DNA from: Pontibacter sp. HSC-36F09 | GTDB lineage: Bacteria; Bacteroidota; Bacteroidia; Cytophagales; Hymenobacteraceae | Reading direction: 5' to 3' | Assembly (NCBI RefSeq): GCF_024171605.1 | Contig: NZ_JALKAA010000002.1 | Location: 1-64,000, forward strand | Length of the DNA stretch: 64,000 bases | In this document: positions 16,108 through 61,127 of the stretch, one piece after another | Layout: each line of letters starts with the position of its first letter | How positions within the stretch are numbered: the first letter of the stretch is position 1 | Notes under the pieces: model-generated | Databases searched by the model: none | What the model saw: only the letters and a program-made list of their open reading frames with translations | What the model was told of the DNA's origin: nothing | Translations under genes and position numbers: made by a program

Positions 16108-16183
16108 AGGTATAGGTATATCTGCTACGCCTGCTATAGTGGCAGATAGGTATAGGTATAGGTATAGGTATAGGTATAGGTAT
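16108..16183. repeat. hexanucleotide tandem repeats AGGTAT (2 copies, then 6 copies)
   Basis: Two perfect AGGTAT units stand at 16108-16119, and six more perfect units at 16148-16183. They lie in the 211-base spacer where the metalloprotease (plus) and subtilase (minus) genes converge, after the terminator. The unit is the core of the motif dispersed over the whole window. A second array with the same number of units is at 61072-61107, also between converging genes. This is a simple repeat that can vary in length by slippage. Confidence 0.95.
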
Positions 16184-19888: not shown

Positions 19889-22800
19889 TTATTGCAGACT
19901 AACTCGTAGCTGTACTCCACCTTCCGACACACTGTTACGGAACGAAGTGGATATTTTAGGGTCGGATACGGTGCGCAGCAGGTAGAACTGTATGTTCACG
20001 CGCTGGCTCAGCACATAGTCCACGGTTGGGCGCAGCTGCAACTGGCGGGTACCGTTGGTGATCTGGTTCTGGCTAATCTCGTTCCCCTGCTCGTCCTGCG
20101 TAATGGCCCGCTGCACGGTCTGGTTGTCACGCACCGACATGTCCATCCGCACGGTCAGCTCGTTCTCCAGCGTGCGCCGCTCCCCGCCTATCTTGAAAGG
20201 TATACGGAAGTTGGTAGTGGCATATCCGAAGCCGAAGGTATAATCCTTCACGTTGGTTTCAGTTACCTGAGCATTGGTCAGGTTGAGCGACAGGTTACGT
20301 TCTATTCTATACCCTATGCGGCCGGTCAGGTTGGTATTCGTCCGGAAGTTCACACCCAGCAGTTCGAGTCGCTCCTGTACCGTGAGTTGGTTCAGGATGT
20401 AGTATGGAATCAGCTGCCCAAACTCGTTGGTGCGCGTCGGGTAGTCGCCCGGGTTATTCTCATAGGCCAGCGAGGTCGTGAAGCTCGTCACGTTGTAGGT
20501 CGAGTTATAGGAGTGCGTGAGGTTTACCTGGCTGAACCAGCGTTTAAAGAATTCGAGCTGCGACAGGCCATTGTAGTCGATGCGCCAGTTAGGTATAGGC
20601 ATCCGCTTGACCGGGTTACCGCCCTTGGCCTTGAAGCCACTGGCATCGCGCCCTTGGTAGGCGTACAGGAACGACTGCAGGAGCACGTCCTGCGAGTTCA
20701 AGGTATAGCCTGAGTCGCTGGCTGCCGCATTGGCGTTGGTGAGGCGGTCACGTATCTCGTAACGGTTGCGGATAAAGTTATCGAACGCGGCAGAGGTTCC
20801 GTCTGCTGTAGGCTCGAAAATAGTGCCCAGCGCAAAGAAGGACGTGCTGAACGAACCGGTGTTGATCGGGTTCTGTCGCTCATTAACGGTGCCGATATTT
20901 CCGAAGTCATCAAACTGCTTGCGGTAGAATACCTCTTCGATCTCCGACATGTTGCGGCGCGCATCAAGCTGCAGGTTGAAATTACGGAACGGCTCCATGT
21001 TAGCTCTGGCCGTGAAAGTCTCGGTATTGATACCACTAAATGGCGTGTTCAGGTACTGGCTGCTGTCGGTATACCAACCGTTGGTGAAGGCGCGGTTATA
21101 GAGCTCGTCCAGGTCGTACTGGCGGCCCAGTACAAACGGAAGTCCCGGGGCATCGAAGCCATCATCGAAGCCAAACATGTGGGTGCGCGGCAGGTAGCCC
21201 GGCATCATGGTGCCCTGGTTCTGGAGGTATGTGAAGTTCACAGAGCGGGTCATCATCAGGAAGCGGGCCAATCCCTTGGCAAGTTTCATCTCAGAACGCT
21301 TCTGTACCACGCTATCGCTTGGCGCTGGCACCGGTGGCCCTGCTTGCGGCTGCGTCGGGCTGTTCACCTCTTTCAGGAACTTCACCTTGTTGTAAAGCTT
21401 CACCATGTCAAAGCGGCCATTCACGCTAAACTCGGTGTTGTTCTCAGCGGTGTTACCCAATTGGAAAGCCGCATCCTGGTTCAGGGCAGTAGAACCCGCC
21501 GTCCAGATGTAGGTAACAGCATAGCGTGTTTCGGCGCCTAGCCAGTCGGTGAGCGGGAATTTATCAAACGGCACCTTGTAATTGGCGGCTACCAGCTGAT
21601 TGAAGTGCGTGTTACGCCCCAGATTGCGCAGGTTGTTCCAGATCACTTTGTTCTTATACCTGAGAGAGTCCACGTCGCGGTTGATGCGGTAATCCGGTTC
21701 GTCCACCACGGCGCGGTTGGTGGCCGTGTAGTCCAGCGAGAGGCTTTTGCTGATGTCCCACTTGAGGTCGTAGATGCGGTTGAAGAAGAAGTACTTCTGG
21801 AACGTAGGTTCTATACCTCGGGAAGTGATCAGACCGGAACCCGGATCACGGCGCTGCAGGAAAGTTTCGTTATACCTGCGGTCGAGGTCGGCGCGGAAAG
21901 CAAAACGGCTTGGCAGCGGCGTAAAGTTCAGGTCTTTGATCAGGCGCATGTACGGCGACTTGAATTTTTCGCTTTTGGCAAAGAACTCGTAGTTGCGCGG
22001 CGTGTTTGTATAGGTATAGGCCACTGCCCCGGTATAGGTGCGGGTAAAGTCGCGGTCGGTTTCGATGTTGGTGAACAGGCGCTCGGCATAGGAGTACGAA
22101 AACGACAGGTTTTCCACGTCGTACGGGCGCACCTTGGCCTCCGGATTGGTCCTTTCTTTTCGCACGTTCAGCAGGCTCACACTCTTTCGGGTCTCGCGGG
22201 TACTCACTTCCTGCCTGTACTCCCGTTGCGCTTCGTTGGTCTCATACCTTGTCAGCGACTGCTCTAGGGGCACGTCCTTGTCGAGTGGGTCAAACTGCGG
22301 GGCGCTGTTCATGGTGCCGTACTGCACCGATACCGGCACTTTTATACCTAGCTTTTCGGGTAGGAACTTATCGGCTACAATGTTGGCGCTTACATCAAAT
22401 ATGGCTGTGTTTTCGCGGGCACGCTGGGCGATCTTCTGCTGCAGGGCACCGAAACCGATGGTGGTGTAGCTGCCTGTTGCCGTGATGTTGGCAAAGTCGG
22501 CCAGTTTGGTGTTGAGGCGGGCATTGGCGGCCCAGCCGGAGTTGTTTCTGAAGTCTGTCACGCGCAGTTCGTTCACCCAAACGCAAACCGATTGCGGACG
22601 GGCATCTTCGCCGGGCACGGTAGGGTTGCGCAAACCGATCATTACACTTTGAACCTCACTGAAATCCGGGTTACCCACCACGCGGATCATCTTGCCACCC
22701 TCGAGCATTACTTCCCACGGACGGCGGTTGTCCCAGCCTCCTGCGGTTCGGTTTCGCTCCACTTTGGCGTTCACAAAATCCTCCAGGGCAACGTCCACTT

Positions 22801-25800
22801 CATTCTCGGCCAGCCAGATACCTTCGCGGCTAGTCGTTCCGGCAGGTGTCAGTTTAAGCGGCACCACGTATTCGTAGTAGTTTTGGGTATAGTCCGTACC
22901 AATACGCACAAAGGCCTGCACATCATTATCGCGGGTGTTCGGGTCGCGGGTCTGGGCATGCAGAAACAGCTTAAGGCGCTTGTAGATCAGCATGTCGATG
23001 GACAGGTTCTTATAAACTGCCTTGGAGAAAGAATCTTTCAGATCCTCGACACACAACTGCATCGCCTGCTCGTTCTGGCGGCGGTTGTTGGTGGCAGCGT
23101 AGTCGCGCAGGCGCTCTATACCTGGAGGCATTACGTAAGGGATGATCGTTTCGTCCTGTACTGTTTCGCTGTTCTCTTCTATGTTCACGGTGGAAACGGT
23201 AAACGAGCGGGCATCATCGGTACAGTTCAGGCAAGGGTTGCCATCCGTGATTGGCTGCAGGAAAGTACGCCACTGGTTGGCCACAAACTGGAACTGCACA
23301 AAACGGAGCACCACCGGATCGGCAAACTCAGTCATGTACATACGCATGAATCGGATCGACTTGAAGCCGCTTATGCCGCCCACATTGCCCGTTGGCTGGC
23401 GCACCGGCACCCGGAACTGGTACCAGGTAACGTTTTCGCCGGTTTTGGTATCCACGATCTTGTCTACGATGTAGTTCTCGCCTACGCTCATACCGCCCGG
23501 CTGCAGTTTGATCTTGTACTCGTAGTACTGCTCCAGATCGCTGATCACGTTGTCGCGGTTCAGGTCTTCTTTGTCAGGGAAGGCGTAGTTAGAAAAGCGA
23601 CTCTGCTCCGGCGAGTTGCCTTCCATACCGTTGAAGCGCTTGTAGCGCTCCAGGATGCCGGCATTCTGCTGGTCATAGGCCTCATCGAGGTGGTGCAGAA
23701 AGTTGTCAGCCGAAGGGTCGGAGAGGACGGTCTGAGGTGCTCCGCCAGGTATACGGCTCAGGAAATCGCGCTGGAAAAACTCACGCTCAGCGTTGTCGCC
23801 TAAACCATCCAGACCGATGTCCTGAAAACCGCGGGCGCCCGGTACGGCCGAGAAGGCATCGGTCAGGAACTGCTGCGTGGTCACGCGGCCCCATTCGGTG
23901 GTTTGCATGTTTTGGTTATCGGTAGCGGAGGTCGGCAAGCCGTTTTCAAAAGAGTAGCGGTTGTCTTTCAGGATATCCTCCGACACGTTACCCAGGTTGA
24001 TCACCAGTTCACCACCATCGTTGCTCGCTATCGGGTTGCCGTTCGCGTCTTTGCGTCCATTTGGTCCGGTCAGGAAAGGGTCCATCAGCCAGAACTCCAC
24101 ATACTCAACGTTGGCATTGTCAAAGTCCGTGTCGAAAGTAATCTCCCGGCTGATACCGCCCCAGTTCTTGCGCGGATCGTTCTGTAGTCTGCCCTGTCCA
24201 TCCAACTCTGGGTTGTAGTTGTACTGTCCGCGCTCCTGTGGGTAGTAGGCCACATCGAAGGTATACTCGTAGGCGTTGGCTATCTCACGATCGCGGCCCG
24301 GGAACACCTCATACCGTTGCACAGGGCGTACATAGTGGTTCTTGAGTTCCTCGTCGCCGATGTTGCTAGGGCGCAGGCCTTCACTGTCGCGGTAGAAGAT
24401 CTGGTCGATGGTATACCAGGCTACGCGGGCGCGGTTGTAGGCATACCCCAGGCCTTGTCCCTGCGCCAGTGGGGCAGGAGTGGCCGCCAACCGCCAGGTG
24501 GTGTTGTTAAAACCACCCAGACTGAATGGCGTTTCGGCACCTTCAAAGTCATCCAGGTATGAGGTACCGTCCTCGTTTACCGGTGACTCAGTGGCAGATG
24601 GCACCAGATGTGCAAACTCACCGCTGAACGTTACGCTCGACGGTACTTTGGTCTGAATGAACGGAATCATGTCCGTCATCTTCGTCAGGAAGCGCGACTC
24701 CCGGTTGAAGTTCACGTCCAGACCGTATACTGTGTTGTTGGTCGGTTCGTCACCTATGCTCACGCGGTTAATGTAAGGCCTTTCGTTGAGGTGCAATACT
24801 GTGCCGCCCAGGTTCAGGTCGTTGTTCACACGGTAGTCGAAGCGGGCGCCCAGCAGGGTGCGGGGCTGAATGTTGAGCAATTCGGCCTTTTCGTAGGTAA
24901 CGCGCAGGTCGCTGGCTGAAGCGATATAACTCGGGTTCAGAATCTTGATGCGGCCCAAGTCATAGAATACCTGGTAGTCGGTGCCTTCCTCAAGGCGTGT
25001 GCCACCGGAGTATACCGCCACAGAGCCCTCGGCGATGCGGAAGCCCGGGAGCATGATCTCGTCCGTGGAGCTGGCCTGGAAGCGTCCTTTAAGGTAGAAC
25101 TTCGCCTTTAGTGTGTTCTGCTGCGCGTCCGTCTGGGTTTGTTCGTAGAGTTCCTGGAACACATAGCGCTCAACCAAGTCCTGCCGTCCTTCAAACTTGC
25201 TTGCCAGGTATGAGCCGAACGGTTCTACTACCGGGAAGAAGATGCGCCCTGTTTCAGGATCAATCGTTATACCTTCCAGAAAGTCGAAGTTGCCGTCGCG
25301 GGGTTTGTCGTTGTTCGTGTTGACATTGTCGAGGTTGAGCACCTCAATCAGGGGGATGTTCTGGATCGGGCTCGGCTCTTTTAAGCTGGTGATATCTACG
25401 CCCGTTTCGTCGTCTTTGTAAACGATCTGCAGCTGGAAGTTCTGACGGTTTACCTGCGTCGCGTCCAGGCTGTAGACGTTCTTCATCATCAGGTCCCAGG
25501 TCGGGTACTCCAGCGCCGGGTTCGTCGCCTTCAACAGCTTCATGTGGATCACCTGGTCGTCGCGCAGGTTCTGGTAGTCCTCCATCAACTCGCCCACTTT
25601 GTAGGTTTGGCCGTTGTAGGTATACTCAAAAGCGACGCCCAGCACCTGGTCAGGCAGCAGGGCGGTGGTGAGGGAGATGTAACCTAACTGCGGGTTGAAC
25701 TTATACTCGCGTGGGTCCAGGCGTCGGGCGCGCACATGCTCAAAGTCAATGGCTTTCTGCAAACCAAGGCTGTTCAGGTATGAGTCCACCTGGTCGTTGT

Positions 25801-27076
25801 TGCGGGCCTGCGGGTTGGTGTTGATCAGGCTATACAGCGCGTTGGCGTTGTTGGCGGCCGGAGCCAGCGGATTGCGCTCAAACTGGTTTCTAAATGGATC
25901 GGATTCGCCTAAGTCCATGTAAGCGACCATGTTGCGCAGGTTCTCAGTGCTGCGGTTGTTGTTGGTTACGTATAGCTCCAGTCGGCGGATTACGATGCCA
26001 GAGTTCACCAGCGGCAGGTTCTGCAGGGTTTTGTCGTAGCGGCCCCGGAAGAACTGCGACAGGAAGAAGTGGCGGTCGCGGTCATAGCTGTCAGCTCGTA
26101 TCTCAAAAGGCTTGTTCTGTGCACCATTCTGAATTACTACTTCATCATTACGGCCACGCACGTTGGCTGCAATCGTAGTAACGCCCAGGCGGCCGAACTG
26201 CAACTGCGTTTTTAAACCGAACAGGTTCTGCGCGCCCGTAATCAAAGAGTTGTTAAGCGGCAAACTCACATTACCAGCCTCTATCTTGCGGATAATCTCC
26301 TCCTCAAAACCAGTATAGTCCAGCTTCATGTTGTTCTCGAACTCGAAGTTGGCGTTGTTGTCCCAGTTGAAGTTAAGGCGCATTTTCTCGCCGATCTTAC
26401 CCACCAGGTTGAGCGAAATGTTCTGATCGAAATCAAAGTCGCCGGTGCGCTGCTGACGGAGCGGTATAGAAGGGTTTTCGTTGCGGTTAAAGCGGGCTCC
26501 GAACTTCAGGTTGACGTTACCGTTTGGCTGAATGTCCACGAAATTGCCGCCGAACACGCGGTCAAACACCGGGCTGATATAGATTTTCGGTACCAGGCGA
26601 CGGCCACTCACTACGCTCTCACCGTCCAGGCCGGCTGACTTGGTGCGCCAGTAGTCGCGGATGGCCTGTTGGCGCTGGTAGCGGGAGTATTCCTCCCACG
26701 ACATGGTAGAGGGCAGGCGGTAGTCCAGCTCACCCATGCGCTCGTTTATGTTGTACTGCCGCAGGCTGTCGTCCAGCTGTATTTCGAGCTCAATGTTAGA
26801 AGGCTGACCAAGCAACAGGGGAGAAGAACTAGGGCGGGTGCCGAGCGGGCTTCCGAGGCGGTCGCTCGGCGTAAAGGTCGGGCGGCGGCTCGGGATGTAG
26901 GGTTGCAGGCGGGCGGAGTCCTGCGGAATGGTATCCTGGACGTAAAAATCTGAAAAAATAAGGGTGCTATACCTGTTGTGAGAGCGCAATGCCGCAGCCT
27001 GCGACCACCATGCCAACATAGTGATAGCAGCAACCGTTGCAAACAGCAGGCTGTTTTTTTTACTTTTCCAGATCAA
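19889..27076 (-). CDS. sprA: T9SS translocon channel SprA (Sov)
   Basis: A 2395-residue protein, one of the largest in Bacteroidota, with an N-terminal export segment at about residues 8-28. It matches SprA along its length (LRQYNINERMGELDYRLPS, ISPVFDRVFGGNFVDIQPNG, EVARFEYTYN-like barrel strands and a terminal strand ending VSLQ). SprA forms the very large outer-membrane beta barrel through which T9SS cargo passes, and it is also needed for gliding in Flavobacterium. It works with PorV and PorU, encoded 13-20 kb away. It starts 15 bases after ruvA, so it is probably in an operon with maeB and ruvA. The frame is intact and full length. Confidence 0.95.
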   Translation of the reverse strand: MIWKSKKNSLLFATVAAITMLAWWSQAAALRSHNRYSTLIFSDFYVQDTIPQDSARLQPYIPSRRPTFTPSDRLGSPLGTRPSSSPLLLGQPSNIELEIQLDDSLRQYNINERMGELDYRLPSTMSWEEYSRYQRQQAIRDYWRTKSAGLDGESVVSGRRLVPKIYISPVFDRVFGGNFVDIQPNGNVNLKFGARFNRNENPSIPLRQQRTGDFDFDQNISLNLVGKIGEKMRLNFNWDNNANFEFENNMKLDYTGFEEEIIRKIEAGNVSLPLNNSLITGAQNLFGLKTQLQFGRLGVTTIAANVRGRNDEVVIQNGAQNKPFEIRADSYDRDRHFFLSQFFRGRYDKTLQNLPLVNSGIVIRRLELYVTNNNRSTENLRNMVAYMDLGESDPFRNQFERNPLAPAANNANALYSLINTNPQARNNDQVDSYLNSLGLQKAIDFEHVRARRLDPREYKFNPQLGYISLTTALLPDQVLGVAFEYTYNGQTYKVGELMEDYQNLRDDQVIHMKLLKATNPALEYPTWDLMMKNVYSLDATQVNRQNFQLQIVYKDDETGVDITSLKEPSPIQNIPLIEVLNLDNVNTNNDKPRDGNFDFLEGITIDPETGRIFFPVVEPFGSYLASKFEGRQDLVERYVFQELYEQTQTDAQQNTLKAKFYLKGRFQASSTDEIMLPGFRIAEGSVAVYSGGTRLEEGTDYQVFYDLGRIKILNPSYIASASDLRVTYEKAELLNIQPRTLLGARFDYRVNNDLNLGGTVLHLNERPYINRVSIGDEPTNNTVYGLDVNFNRESRFLTKMTDMIPFIQTKVPSSVTFSGEFAHLVPSATESPVNEDGTSYLDDFEGAETPFSLGGFNNTTWRLAATPAPLAQGQGLGYAYNRARVAWYTIDQIFYRDSEGLRPSNIGDEELKNHYVRPVQRYEVFPGRDREIANAYEYTFDVAYYPQERGQYNYNPELDGQGRLQNDPRKNWGGISREITFDTDFDNANVEYVEFWLMDPFLTGPNGRKDANGNPIASNDGGELVINLGNVSEDILKDNRYSFENGLPTSATDNQNMQTTEWGRVTTQQFLTDAFSAVPGARGFQDIGLDGLGDNAEREFFQRDFLSRIPGGAPQTVLSDPSADNFLHHLDEAYDQQNAGILERYKRFNGMEGNSPEQSRFSNYAFPDKEDLNRDNVISDLEQYYEYKIKLQPGGMSVGENYIVDKIVDTKTGENVTWYQFRVPVRQPTGNVGGISGFKSIRFMRMYMTEFADPVVLRFVQFQFVANQWRTFLQPITDGNPCLNCTDDARSFTVSTVNIEENSETVQDETIIPYVMPPGIERLRDYAATNNRRQNEQAMQLCVEDLKDSFSKAVYKNLSIDMLIYKRLKLFLHAQTRDPNTRDNDVQAFVRIGTDYTQNYYEYVVPLKLTPAGTTSREGIWLAENEVDVALEDFVNAKVERNRTAGGWDNRRPWEVMLEGGKMIRVVGNPDFSEVQSVMIGLRNPTVPGEDARPQSVCVWVNELRVTDFRNNSGWAANARLNTKLADFANITATGSYTTIGFGALQQKIAQRARENTAIFDVSANIVADKFLPEKLGIKVPVSVQYGTMNSAPQFDPLDKDVPLEQSLTRYETNEAQREYRQEVSTRETRKSVSLLNVRKERTNPEAKVRPYDVENLSFSYSYAERLFTNIETDRDFTRTYTGAVAYTYTNTPRNYEFFAKSEKFKSPYMRLIKDLNFTPLPSRFAFRADLDRRYNETFLQRRDPGSGLITSRGIEPTFQKYFFFNRIYDLKWDISKSLSLDYTATNRAVVDEPDYRINRDVDSLRYKNKVIWNNLRNLGRNTHFNQLVAANYKVPFDKFPLTDWLGAETRYAVTYIWTAGSTALNQDAAFQLGNTAENNTEFSVNGRFDMVKLYNKVKFLKEVNSPTQPQAGPPVPAPSDSVVQKRSEMKLAKGLARFLMMTRSVNFTYLQNQGTMMPGYLPRTHMFGFDDGFDAPGLPFVLGRQYDLDELYNRAFTNGWYTDSSQYLNTPFSGINTETFTARANMEPFRNFNLQLDARRNMSEIEEVFYRKQFDDFGNIGTVNERQNPINTGSFSTSFFALGTIFEPTADGTSAAFDNFIRNRYEIRDRLTNANAAASDSGYTLNSQDVLLQSFLYAYQGRDASGFKAKGGNPVKRMPIPNWRIDYNGLSQLEFFKRWFSQVNLTHSYNSTYNVTSFTTSLAYENNPGDYPTRTNEFGQLIPYYILNQLTVQERLELLGVNFRTNTNLTGRIGYRIERNLSLNLTNAQVTETNVKDYTFGFGYATTNFRIPFKIGGERRTLENELTVRMDMSVRDNQTVQRAITQDEQGNEISQNQITNGTRQLQLRPTVDYVLSQRVNIQFYLLRTVSDPKISTSFRNSVSEGGVQLRVSLQ

Positions 27077-39851: not shown

Positions 39852-41345
39852 TTATTTTTTAGATAGAAAGTAGGACCGCTCCCTGAACCAAACCACTGCC
39901 AGAAAAACGCCGCATATTGCCAAATGGTATGCGTGGCGCAGCCAGAAATCTTCGATAGGCACCAGGAAGGCAGCCGCCACCAGTCCCGTAGCGAGTACGA
40001 TATACCCTAAAATGGTTTTGACAGGGTAGGGGATCGGGTAGTGCACATTGCCCAGCAGGTAAGTGGCCAGCGCCATACCGATGTAGCAAAGGAGCGTGGC
40101 TATGGCCGAGCCCATGTAGCCCAGTACAGGTATAAGCAGCAGGTTGAAAGCAATCGTAACCGCTGCTCCCCCGAAAGCGATGTAGGTGCCAAAATGCGTT
40201 TTATCTGTCAGCTTGAACCAAACAGTGAGGTTGTAGTAAATGCCCAGGAACAGGTTGGCGAGCAGCAGTACCGGCACTACCATCAAACCGTCATGGTATT
40301 CCGGTCCGATCAGTAGAGCGAAATCTTCGAGGTTAGTCGAGATAAACAGGTAGATGAAAGCACAGGCGATCACAAACCATTTCATGACCAGAGCGAAGGC
40401 CTGCGGCGATTCTTTCTCCTGTGCCTGCGAGAAAAAGAACGGCTCGGCGGCATAGCGGAAAGCCTGTATGGTGAGCGTCATGAAAATGGCGAGTTTGTAG
40501 CAGGCGCTGTATATACCTACGGCCGCCATGTTGCTGGTGCCCGGATAGAAACCTTCGGGCAGATAACGCTCCAAAAGTATCCGGTCTATCACTTCGTTGA
40601 CCATGCCGGCCAGCCCCATGAACAGGAGCGGCCATGCGTATTGCAGCATCGGCTTGAGTTGCTCCACATCCAGCCTGAAGCGGAAAATGCGCAGCTCCTT
40701 CCACAGCATGGGCAGCAGCAGTGCATTGGCCACCAGGTTAATCAAAAAAATATAACCAACTCCAAAATCTGGATTGTACAGGTATGCGGCTAGCGGTTGC
40801 AGACTCGTGAGGTACTGTCCTTCGTAAATGTGCCGCAGCAGGACCAGGAAAAAAAGATTGGCCCCCACTGTCAGCAGGATGTTGGCCAGCTTAATGGAGG
40901 CGAATTTGATGGCTTTGTTCTGATGCCGAAGCCAGGCAAATGGTATAGCCACCAGCGCATCGATTGCCAGCACAAGCGCCAGCCAGACGATGTACTCCCG
41001 GTGTTCAGGGTAGCCGATGTAGTCTGCAATTTGCTGCGAAAAGAGCAGCAGTATACCTGTGAGAATCGTGCTGCTAACCAGAATGGCGCTCAGCACCCGG
41101 TTGTAAACCGTTTTCGGTTCTTGCTCAGGTTTGTTGGCAAAGCGGAAAAAAGCCGTCTCCATTCCGTAGGTATACACGACGTTGAAGAAAGCCACAAAAG
41201 CATATAGGTAGGAGACCACCCCATACTCCTCTGGCAGAAACACACGGGTATAGACCGGCACGAGCAGGTAGTTGAGGGCGCGGCCCACGATGCTGCTCAG
41301 TCCGTAGGCAGCTGTTTGCCCGACCAGTTTTTTGGCGATGCTCAT
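39852..41345 (-). CDS. oligosaccharide flippase family protein (MOP superfamily)
   Basis: A 497-residue polytopic membrane protein with about 14 predicted helices, of the Wzx-like polysaccharide transporter group. It starts KLVGQTAAYGLSSIVGRALNYLLVPVYTRVF, a pattern common at the N-terminus of such flippases (given here as a description of residues 5-35). It probably moves lipid-linked sugars over the inner membrane. It is first in the envelope cluster. No glycosyltransferases are adjacent, so the cargo is unknown. The end is basic (FRERSYFLSKK), as expected on the cytoplasmic side. Confidence 0.87.
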   Translation of the reverse strand: MSIAKKLVGQTAAYGLSSIVGRALNYLLVPVYTRVFLPEEYGVVSYLYAFVAFFNVVYTYGMETAFFRFANKPEQEPKTVYNRVLSAILVSSTILTGILLLFSQQIADYIGYPEHREYIVWLALVLAIDALVAIPFAWLRHQNKAIKFASIKLANILLTVGANLFFLVLLRHIYEGQYLTSLQPLAAYLYNPDFGVGYIFLINLVANALLLPMLWKELRIFRFRLDVEQLKPMLQYAWPLLFMGLAGMVNEVIDRILLERYLPEGFYPGTSNMAAVGIYSACYKLAIFMTLTIQAFRYAAEPFFFSQAQEKESPQAFALVMKWFVIACAFIYLFISTNLEDFALLIGPEYHDGLMVVPVLLLANLFLGIYYNLTVWFKLTDKTHFGTYIAFGGAAVTIAFNLLLIPVLGYMGSAIATLLCYIGMALATYLLGNVHYPIPYPVKTILGYIVLATGLVAAAFLVPIEDFWLRHAYHLAICGVFLAVVWFRERSYFLSKK

Positions 41346-41393
41346 GCGTTTGTTTTAGGGCAGGGAGGTATAGGTATCAGCTGAAAAAGACAG

Positions 41394-41434
41394 AACGCGC
41401 TATACCTGCCATTTATTGATAGGTATAGCGCGTT
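41394..41434 (-). terminator. terminator of the enoyl-CoA hydratase gene, built from an inverted motif pair
   Basis: A perfect 14-bp stem: AACGCGCTATACCT (41394-41407) with AGGTATAGCGCGTT (41421-41434) and a 13-nt loop. On the minus strand a short T run follows (CTTTTTC). The inner half of both arms is the dispersed motif in opposite orientations. Confidence 0.75.
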
Positions 41435-41449
41435 GCTGCAGGTATAAGA

Positions 41450-42232
41450 TTAAGCGCCTTTGAATACAGGCTTGCGCTTCTCCAGGAATGCATTGGTGCC
41501 CTCAATAAAGTCTTGCGAGGAGCAGCAGCGGGCAAACGAGTTGGCCTCTGTCTGGTAGCCATTCTCGTCTTTGTCGTACACGGCGTTCACACAGTCGATT
41601 ACCAGGCCAATGGCAAGTGGGGCCTTAGACACGATCTTGTTCATAATCTCCATACACTTTGGCATCAGTTCTACAGCAGGCACTACGTGGTTTACCAAAC
41701 CAAGTGCCTTGGCTTCGTTCGCGCCAATCATGTCGGCGGTCATCATCAGTTCCATCGCTTTGCCCTTACCGATCAGCTGTGTCAGGCGCTGCGTGCCACC
41801 GTAGCCCGGTATAAGGCCCAGGTTTACTTCCGGCTGACCAAAACGGGCACCTTCGCTGGCAACGCGCATGTGGCAGGCCATAGCTAGTTCGCAGCCTCCG
41901 CCTAGGGCAAAGCCATTCACGGCAGCGATCACGGGCTTGGTGCAACGTTCGATCATGCTGAAAACCTCCTGACCGCGCTCCGCAAAACTGCGGGCGTTTA
42001 CGTCGCTAAGTTCTGAGATCTCCGAAATGTCAGCACCTGCTACAAAAGCTTTTTCTCCGGCACCGGTAAAGATGGCTCCCTTCACAGCAGAATCGTCATA
42101 GACTTGCTGGATGGCAGCCTTGATCTCCCTGATGGTTTCGATGTTGAGGGCATTTAGCTTATCTGCACGATTAATGGTGATGATAAGAACGCCATTCTCG
42201 AGGTTGAGCAGCAGGTTTTCGTATAGAGACAT
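41450..42232 (-). CDS. enoyl-CoA hydratase/isomerase family protein
   Basis: A 260-residue crotonase. Both catalytic glutamates of the hydratase type are present: E115 (GGGCELAMAC) and E135 (FGQPEVNLG). The oxyanion hole lies in AFVAGADISE and GFALGGG. It adds water to trans-2-enoyl-CoA in beta-oxidation or a related path. It stands alone on the minus strand with its own terminator. The promoter upstream (42267-42298) encloses a perfect 14-bp palindrome, so it is likely to be under a dedicated regulator. Confidence 0.93.
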   Translation of the reverse strand: MSLYENLLLNLENGVLIITINRADKLNALNIETIREIKAAIQQVYDDSAVKGAIFTGAGEKAFVAGADISEISELSDVNARSFAERGQEVFSMIERCTKPVIAAVNGFALGGGCELAMACHMRVASEGARFGQPEVNLGLIPGYGGTQRLTQLIGKGKAMELMMTADMIGANEAKALGLVNHVVPAVELMPKCMEIMNKIVSKAPLAIGLVIDCVNAVYDKDENGYQTEANSFARCCSSQDFIEGTNAFLEKRKPVFKGA

Positions 42233-57654: not shown

Positions 57655-57705
57655 CAGGTATAGCACCTGTACTTGAGCGCCTGTCAGCTATACCTGACAG
57701 GCGCT
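57655..57705 (+). terminator. terminator of OmpA-like gene 1, with inverted motif pair
   Basis: A perfect 12-bp stem AGCGCCTGTCAG (57676-57687) with 57694-57705, a loop CTATAC and a T run to 57710. The 9-mer CAGGTATAG (57655-57663) and its exact complement CTATACCTG (57688-57696) form an inverted pair around and inside it, so an alternative stem is possible. Confidence 0.88.
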
Positions 57706-57710
57706 TTTTT

Positions 57711-57960
57711 GTGCAGCAGATAACTCCTTTAGCAGGCTCCTAAAGCCATTTATATAGTGTTTTTGAATATTCTTCTGTTGGTTTACGTATATACTTTGCC
57801 TAATGCAAGTTACCAATAGTGTGCTGCTAACATATTAACTAGTAGGAGGTTAGTCGCATTGGGTAGTATAACTGCTATATGTAAATACAACATTTTAATG
57901 CATTTGGAGTATTAAGGGCGTAATCTGACAACTATAATTGAAAATTAAAAAACGAAGACA
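57711..57960. other. spacer between the two OmpA-like genes
   Basis: The gap of 311 bases (57650-57960) holds the terminator at its start and then about 250 AT-rich bases without a gene. A TATACTTTG near 57790 with TTTG at 57762-57765 is a weak promoter candidate, because the spacing is longer than the consensus. Confidence 0.4.
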
Positions 57961-58626: not shown

Positions 58627-58644
58627 GCATTAATCAGACTAATG

Positions 58645-58685
58645 AAAAGCCAGCTATACCGCTACAGGTATAGCTGGCTTTTTTT
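58645..58685. terminator. terminator built from an inverted motif pair, between converging genes
   Basis: A perfect 16-bp stem (58645-58660 with 58667-58682), a 6-nt loop and a T run to 58685. The inner part of the stem is CTATACC against GGTATAG, the dispersed motif. It serves the OmpA-like gene (plus) and possibly the DUF2238 gene (minus). Confidence 0.9.
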
Positions 58686-61071: not shown

Positions 61072-61107
61072 AGGTATAGGTATAGGTATAGGTATAGGTA
61101 TAGGTAT
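61072..61107. repeat. hexanucleotide tandem repeat (AGGTAT)6
   Basis: Six perfect AGGTAT units, preceded by C and followed by AG, lie between the converging endonuclease III-like (plus) and serine hydrolase (minus) genes. The number of units equals that of the array at 16148-16183. No separate terminator is seen in this 94-base spacer. Confidence 0.95.
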
Positions 61108-61127
61108 AGCGGCAATACCTTTCAGCT

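Follow-up and report, generated by a model that had tools for sequence, protein, structure and literature searches.

The hairpin and its genomic setting

The window, a stretch of 64,000 nucleotides of Pontibacter sp. HSC-36F09 (contig NZ_JALKAA010000002.1), encodes on its minus strand an enoyl-CoA hydratase/isomerase (41450-42232; PF00378, E 1.4e-67; 97% identity to its P. amylolyticus match) and, downstream in the same direction, a flippase-like polysaccharide-export protein (39852-41345, minus strand; PF13440 and PF01943). A hairpin lies between the two genes (41394-41434). Its stem is a perfect helix of 14 bp, in which 41394-41407 pairs with 41421-41434 across a loop of 13 nt (41408-41420, minus strand). 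On the minus strand, which is the coding strand of the adjoining hydratase gene, the hairpin is 3' of the stop codon. Read 5' to 3' on this strand, the 5' arm (41421-41434) is AACGCGCTATACCT and the 3' arm (41394-41407) is AGGTATAGCGCGTT. Each arm contains one copy of an 8-mer motif, read on the plus strand as CTATACCT at 41400-41407 and as AGGTATAG at 41421-41428, and AACGCG and CGCGTT form the outermost part of the stem. The initial annotation had reported motif copies in both arms of a hairpin past the enoyl-CoA hydratase gene, and these coordinates confirm it. The same intergenic region holds a third copy of AGGTATAG (41366-41373, plus strand) and, on direct reading, a near-motif, AGGTATAA, that adjoins the stop codon (41440-41447, plus strand).

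The minus-strand RNA is predicted to fold with -29.7 kcal/mol (z -5.8), and none of 200 shuffled sequences was equally stable. A tract of five T follows on the same strand (41384-41388), five bases beyond the stem. The terminator scanner found no canonical terminator at 41300-41500, because of the 13-nt loop and the five bases that separate the stem from the T tract. Judged by the features of intrinsic terminators, the hairpin thus has a strong stem and an invariant T tract, together with a loop of 13 nt and a T tract offset by five bases.

Among the named sequences, those closest to the window come from Pontibacter species. We compared 11 loci of the clade whose genomes are rich in AGGTATAG (the window and L005-L014), and found the hairpin in ten of them, the exception being P. 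roseus (L012). In the alignment of these ten loci the loop varied in sequence and length, but the T tract (10/10 loci) and all stem columns except one (27 of 28) were invariant. All 14 columns of the 3' arm were invariant, as were 13 of the 14 columns of the 5' arm, where the outermost base differs in L010. This alignment gives no covariation support for the stem, because no stem pair varies with compensation. By eye, the hairpin was not seen in 16 other Pontibacter loci, where the spacer amounts to a few tens of bases. In all five Rufibacter loci (L030-L034) the corresponding position downstream of the hydratase gene holds, by eye, a long hairpin unrelated to this one. Its arms are of the GCCTACTCCCG / CGGGAGTAGG type, and it is perhaps a repeated element of Rufibacter's own.

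The hairpin is genuine and of an ordinary kind. Its position 3' of the stop codon, the near-invariant stem and the invariant T tract make a role as a non-canonical terminator, or as another 3'-end element, plausible. The proposal that it is a terminator stands to this extent: the structure is real, lies past the stop codon and is conserved, but the scanner does not class it as canonical.

Abundance and distribution of the motif

The motif is much more remarkable than the hairpin. We counted 5,222 copies of AGGTATAG in the 4.43 Mb genome; its reversed form, used as control, occurred 102 times. The window alone has 72 copies (1.02 expected), and in 1.2 Mb the motif reached 57 times its expectation. 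The near-motif AGGTATAA was about 14-fold over expectation in the same 1.2 Mb. One-mismatch neighbours of AGGTATAG reveal a strict GTA centre, with tolerance for G at position 7 (6x) and for A or C at position 8 (14x).

The gene boundaries in the following counts are simple longest-ORF calls, not annotation. In 1.2 Mb the motif occurred at 0.97 copies per kb in coding and 2.83 per kb in intergenic DNA. Intergenic regions between convergent genes (3'-3') were the densest (5.4 per kb, against 1.8 per kb between divergent, 5'-5', genes), an order that was repeated in G010, in G030 and in a pooled sample of AAGTATAA, another word described below, and that was weak in G001. Nevertheless, two thirds of the copies on contig C1 of this genome (G000) are coding (1,006 of 1,494). 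Within genes, CTATACCT was commoner than AGGTATAG (628 vs 414). One orientation is likewise commoner in genes for known uptake sequences, according to the available text of PMC2346458, but the asymmetry could also follow from the TAG stop that arises in one frame. We found no significant bias between gene halves for either orientation (202/212 for AGGTATAG; 332/296 for CTATACCT, which was somewhat higher in the first three tenths of genes).

The motif is also preferentially kept. Across a 13-kb locus in 11 species, it was retained in 736 of 1,159 ordered comparisons, about twice the 0.333 of flanking 8-mers. Of two ad hoc control words at this locus, GCTGGCCA was retained above its flanks (0.52 vs 0.32) and CAGCAGGC below them (0.24 vs 0.47). 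Because one control word was thus kept as well, being a favoured word may explain part of the conservation signal, and we regard the retention of the motif as supportive, not as proof. Beyond this locus, alignments of G000 covered 2.8 kb in contig C8 of G010 (400 kb), 1.9 kb in G030 and 50.5 kb in G001 at 75% identity. Two of the contigs sampled in this work, intended as 20 kb, were shorter (1,041 and 5,423 bases).

Copies are spread over the chromosome with a mean spacing of 0.92 kb over 1.2 Mb (clusters of less than 60 bases counted as one). Such a density, with a strict core, is what one might see if the motif were bound by an abundant protein that organises or repairs the chromosome (nucleoid, segregation, recombination hotspot) and were selected for chromosome-wide spread, and the clade-specific spellings described below would fit a protein and a site that co-evolve. 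The spacing is over-dispersed rather than even (variance/mean 1.15-1.42), and the largest cluster of motif-free gaps above 5 kb (G000 C1:536000-574500, C1 536-574 kb) comprises ribosomal-protein, RNA-polymerase and translation-factor genes, as named from peptide starts; both observations count against this explanation. Chi and KOPS sites are strand-biased. Here, the two strands carried 759 forward and 735 reverse copies over 1.2 Mb, with 100-kb bins ranging from 48/79 to 82/45 and no consistent bias, which argues against a strand-biased site of the Chi or KOPS kind. Overall, we consider a chromosome-organising role unlikely.

The same gap cluster rules out that motif-free stretches are foreign islands only. 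Another motif-free stretch contains COX1 and NrfD family genes, and one low-GC stretch has a phage-type integrase. In the window, a protein of 2,395 residues with SprA_N domains (motility/secretion) is encoded on the minus strand at 19889-27076; this gene is motif-poor, as is the stretch after it. Overlapping motif copies make up two hexamer microsatellites, (AGGTAT)n, at 16148-16179 and 61072-61109, and a longer one lies at G000 C1:39941-40026. The window opens within a 5S rRNA gene (1-90), truncated by the window start.

We also observed a dispersed, mosaic intergenic repeat at G000 C1:221101-221800 (L096:1101-1800). Its matches numbered 45 in 1.264 Mb of G000 (counting the query), against 29 in 400 kb of G010 and 4 in 200 kb of G030; with a 6-kb query containing it, G010 gave 69 matches, G003 53 and G030 58. 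The copy at C1:221421-221652 carries direct AGGTATAG pairs, in opposite orientations, near both of its ends. Compared with Rfam, the repeat matched no family above the gathering score.

Close pairs of the motif and terminators

Haemophilus uptake sequences form terminator pairs, and the initial annotation took the inverted copies in the stem as support for reading the motif as an uptake sequence. The pairs found genome-wide do not bear this out. At distances of 0-30 nt there are 152 inverted pairs (62 of the CTATACCT..AGGTATAG type and 90 of the AGGTATAG..CTATACCT type), against 353 direct close pairs, hexamer arrays included. Uniform placement would give 47.7 pairs of each inverted type (p 0.026 for the 62; 3e-8 for the 90). 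Once the intergenic bias is allowed for, 60.6 are expected per type, and only AGGTATAG..CTATACCT remains in excess (p 0.0002, against 0.45 for CTATACCT..AGGTATAG). The pair of the window (41400-41428) is of the other type. Close inverted pairs as a class thus need little special explanation.

To compare the classes of pairs we used 1.264 Mb (C1 1-1,200,000 and the window; 168 kb intergenic and about 1.09 Mb coding), considering neighbouring sites only and keeping arrays apart. Direct pairs again outnumbered inverted ones (82 vs 43; binomial p 0.0006), with a further 47 overlapping pairs within hexamer arrays. The inverted pairs were 25 intergenic, 14 coding and 4 mixed, and the direct pairs 40 intergenic, 31 coding and 11 mixed (Fisher p 0.54). 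Inverted pairs are commoner between genes than inside them, so the refuting condition set by the initial annotation does not hold, but this result does not discriminate because direct pairs share the preference. The excess of direct pairs and the equal intergenic preference rule out inverted pairing as the organising form of the motif.

At least three extra outer stem pairs were present in 8 of the 25 intergenic inverted pairs and in 1 of the 14 coding ones, a difference that is not significant (Fisher p 0.12). The 8 of 25 are nonetheless far above the 1-in-64 chance per pair, which indicates that a subset, the window's pair included, are real hairpins. These eight long-stemmed intergenic pairs have different flanks, which rules out a single mobile hairpin element copied around the genome.

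The hairpin at 41394-41434 had been presented as the first of three. Two others in the window fit this description, although which pair was meant is uncertain. One is a terminator-like hairpin with a T run (57675-57706, plus strand), where CTATACCT (57688-57695) occupies the loop and the start of one arm, not both arms; the RNA of 57656-57730 is predicted to fold with -33.5 kcal/mol (z -5.4). The other is a terminator-like hairpin between convergent genes (58644-58683, plus strand; z -5.5 on the plus and -6.0 on the minus strand). It is the only one of the two with a form of the motif in both arms, namely the 7-mers CTATACC and GGTATAG, and contains the full 8-mer once (AGGTATAG at 58666-58673).

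As a class, terminators are not built from the motif. Among 134 terminator-like hairpins from 762 gene-downstream regions, 14 overlapped the motif, which was present in both arms of 3. The hairpins overlapped it less often than did random windows drawn from these regions (489 of 2,680, 18.2%; p 0.018). The motif is sometimes caught in terminators but is not their building material, since so few hairpins overlap it, fewer than random windows do. These results bear as well on an RNA-level account, in which the motif would serve termination or processing and selection would favour its inverted pairs. The high density in 3'-3' intergenic DNA and the long stems of some inverted pairs speak for it, but the large share of coding copies, their presence in both orientations, the majority of direct pairs and the scarcity of motif-bearing hairpins refute it as a general account, and we regard it as the least probable of the explanations considered, with hardly any chance of being correct. 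The hairpin itself carries little weight, and it cautions against taking motif copies in terminator stems as evidence for an uptake function.

Clade-specific dialects in Pontibacter

The motif is one of several words that are abundant in the genus. We counted AGGTATAG in 37 Pontibacter genomes, and the words AAGTATAA and AACTATAG in these and 13 further ones. AGGTATAG reached 2,823-5,222 copies in nine of the 37, AAGTATAA 2,125-7,030 copies in 23 of the 50, and AACTATAG 2,002-8,208 copies in seven of the 50. None of the nine AGGTATAG-rich genomes had more than 453 copies of AAGTATAA or more than 99 of AACTATAG. Culturable species with the AGGTATAG dialect include P. lucknowensis and P. indicus, and P. 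burrus has the AACTATAG dialect. Three genomes (G026, G032 and G065) had both AAGTATAA and AACTATAG at the high level. Of the 37 genomes with counts for every word, eight had none of the three at 2,000 copies or more, which indicates that the mark is dispensable. Among the 13 genomes with counts of AAGTATAA and AACTATAG only, G059, G063, G064, G067, G068 and G069 were rich in neither.

Judged from the tree of a 2.3-kb locus, these dialects follow phylogeny. All 11 AGGTATAG rows group together (SH-aLRT 100). A second clade consists of four AACTATAG rows (99), and the sister of this clade is a locus with both AAGTATAA and AACTATAG. L017, which also passes for both of these words, is placed away from the AACTATAG clade, and the tree needs seven changes. 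The scattered placement of AAGTATAA on this midpoint-rooted tree makes it look like the ancestral word.

The three words have much in common. Each has a near-strict TAT core, where substitutes reach at most 5.4 times expectation, against 23-103 times for the full words. Tolerance at the 3' end is common to all dialect samples, with G accepted at position 7 (6-10x) and T the least tolerated base at position 8. In samples of all dialects the intergenic density was 3-4 times the coding density. The common core and the common tolerance at positions 7 and 8 suggest that one homologous reader, with a shifted 5' specificity, may stand behind the dialects.

The sites themselves are mostly at different positions in different dialects, and coding sites arise without indels (by eye, 13 rows). 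A few are shared. One Leu-Tyr-Leu site is spelled AGGTATAG in the rows of that dialect and AAGTATAA in those of the other, and some AACTATAG sites also occur in single rows of the AAGTATAA dialect. For six of 12 conserved AACTATAG coding sites, the amino-acid string was absent from every row belonging to another dialect.

Other words were enriched in individual genomes. In a 60-kb sample of G036, a GGGTATAA-like word occurred 20 times, against 1.6 expected; the enrichment of this genome (L179, L180, L122) in GGTATAAA/GGGTATAA makes it a possible fourth dialect. In G069 (L175, L176), TATATATA occurred 42 times in 40 kb, against 4.4 expected. In the AAGTATAA-dialect genome G013, L112 contains words consistent with arrays of a pentamer, (CTATA)n.

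Methyltransferases and uptake machinery

Words at such densities need not be related to uptake. HIP1 and the alternate HIPs of cyanobacteria occur about once per kb, alternates replace one another in some lineages, and the core is stricter than the ends; for these words, methylation coupled to mismatch repair has been proposed (PMC4390886, available text). An 8-mer made or kept in this way, with no role in uptake, would match the density that we observed, the strict core flanked by more variable ends, and the change of word from lineage to lineage. Part of the data goes further in this direction: in a 200-kb sample of G030, the palindrome AACTATAGTT encloses AACTATAG at 120 of 311 strand hits, and none of the nine AGGTATAG-rich genomes lacks both of two methyltransferase families, PF01555 and PF00145. 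HIPs, however, are palindromic and have cognate methyltransferases, whereas two of the three words described here, AGGTATAG and AAGTATAA, are non-palindromic. In the 50 genomes, neither of the two families tracks a dialect. PF01555 was found in 31 genomes and is absent from the AGGTATAG genomes G003 and G011; PF00145 was found in 23 and is absent from the AGGTATAG genomes G000, G009, G010, G015 and G028; and five AAGTATAA-rich genomes (G014, G021, G022, G035 and G061) have neither. We regard a HIP-like origin as unlikely.

The machinery of known uptake sequences was not seen, as the profile of the pilus/secretion ATPase (PF00437) had no full-length match in the 50 Pontibacter genomes. All 50 gave short, P-loop-sized matches only (38-66 of 370 positions), three of them just over the cut-off, with some 60 positions matched. 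Every one of the 14 control genomes matched the profile, 13 of them over the cut-off. ComEC was found in all 50 genomes, in 48 of them without internal stop. Since it also matched 10 of the 14 control genomes, its presence is weak evidence.

Comparison with known uptake sequences and repeats

The DNA uptake sequences (DUS) of Neisseriaceae are longer than the 8-mer. In other respects the two are alike: as described in the available text of PMC3630211, DUS occur in thousands of copies, have clade-specific spellings round an invariant core (CTG there, TAT here), prefer permissive and intergenic sites and are found in part in terminator stems. They differ in that Pontibacter has no detectable pilus-type ATPase and more direct than inverted close pairs. 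The uptake sequences (USS) of Pasteurellaceae also have clade-specific spellings, in two types, but there the specificity of uptake has been tested (PMC1626085, available text). Pasteurellaceae uptake motifs are biased to gene ends, according to the available part of PMC2346458, whereas we saw no clear gene-end bias.

These parallels in dialects, copy number, intergenic bias and core are what would recommend the view of the initial annotation, a canonical DNA uptake sequence read by a minor pilin of a type IV pilus, with inverted pairs as terminators as in Neisseria. Against it stand the PF00437 result, the rarity of inverted relative to direct pairs, terminators that are not made of the motif, and the lack of a significant gene-half bias. 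In this canonical form the proposal appears very improbable. Apart from this form, the motif does behave like uptake sequences: it has many copies, a strict core, a preference for intergenic DNA and dialects that differ between clades. What the data do not support is the inverted arrangement as evidence for uptake, and the pilus ATPase was not seen.

A member of the same phylum points to another possible route. In Riemerella, transformation needs ComEC, DprA, ComF and RecA, as well as proteins of unknown function (PMC8459023, available text). We infer from the genes given there as essential that they include no pilus gene known to us. With ComEC essential in Riemerella and present in all the Pontibacter genomes, a pilus-independent route of uptake is conceivable. 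The term "uptake sequence" does not occur in the available text of the two Riemerella papers (PMC8459023, PMC8383284).

Short repeated words have been described in Bacteroidetes. The direct repeats of TAACTGA in Beggiatoaceae, cyanobacteria and five Bacteroidetes resemble ours as a short word in direct repeats, partly in this group, but they form few-copy sets near start codons rather than thousands of single copies, and the available text (PMC4679880) does not mention dialects, nor does it name Pontibacter, Hymenobacter or Cytophaga. Among the matches listed, judged by title and the start of the abstract and with the subscription literature mostly outside reach, none was an earlier account of such words in Pontibacter or Bacteroidetes. 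We found no literature linking Pontibacter with "uptake sequence".

A candidate system of DNA self-recognition

The explanation that we favour, to which we give a probability of about one half, joins a weak 3'-end hairpin, whose arms contain copies of a ubiquitous 8-mer, with a clade-specific mark that would be recognised by a protein and would likely serve self-recognition without a type IV pilus. This hairpin, which occupies the intergenic space in all the AGGTATAG-dialect loci examined except that of P. roseus, probably acts as a weak 3'-end element or terminator of the enoyl-CoA hydratase mRNA. The two motif copies in its arms are explained by the ubiquity of the 8-mer, above all between genes. 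The 8-mer itself is most likely a DNA mark recognised by a protein, spread by substitution and kept at permissive sites. Such a mark would have one spelling per clade (AGGTATAG, AAGTATAA or AACTATAG), and its most likely use would be DNA self-recognition resembling that of uptake-sequence dialects, with a reader other than the type IV pilus.

The discovery is the motif: a set of clade-specific iterated words that behave like dialects and, as far as we searched, are new in the genus. We tentatively propose, as a bolder possibility that we ourselves hold to be doubtful, that Pontibacter species distinguish their own DNA by clade-specific watermarks for uptake or recombination (AGGTATAG, AAGTATAA, AACTATAG and perhaps a fourth that is GGGTATAA-like), through a receptor with no relationship to type IV pili. 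Iterated words with dialects are otherwise familiar to us from the pilus-competent Neisseriaceae and Pasteurellaceae and, in a different form, from cyanobacteria. The genus-wide dialects, the lack of a detectable pilus ATPase and the genomes with two spellings make Pontibacter tractable for studying the spread of such words, their reader and the change from one dialect to another. If the proposal is true, this would be the first system of uptake-sequence dialects in Bacteroidota known to us, and the two-spelling genomes would show dialect switching caught midway.
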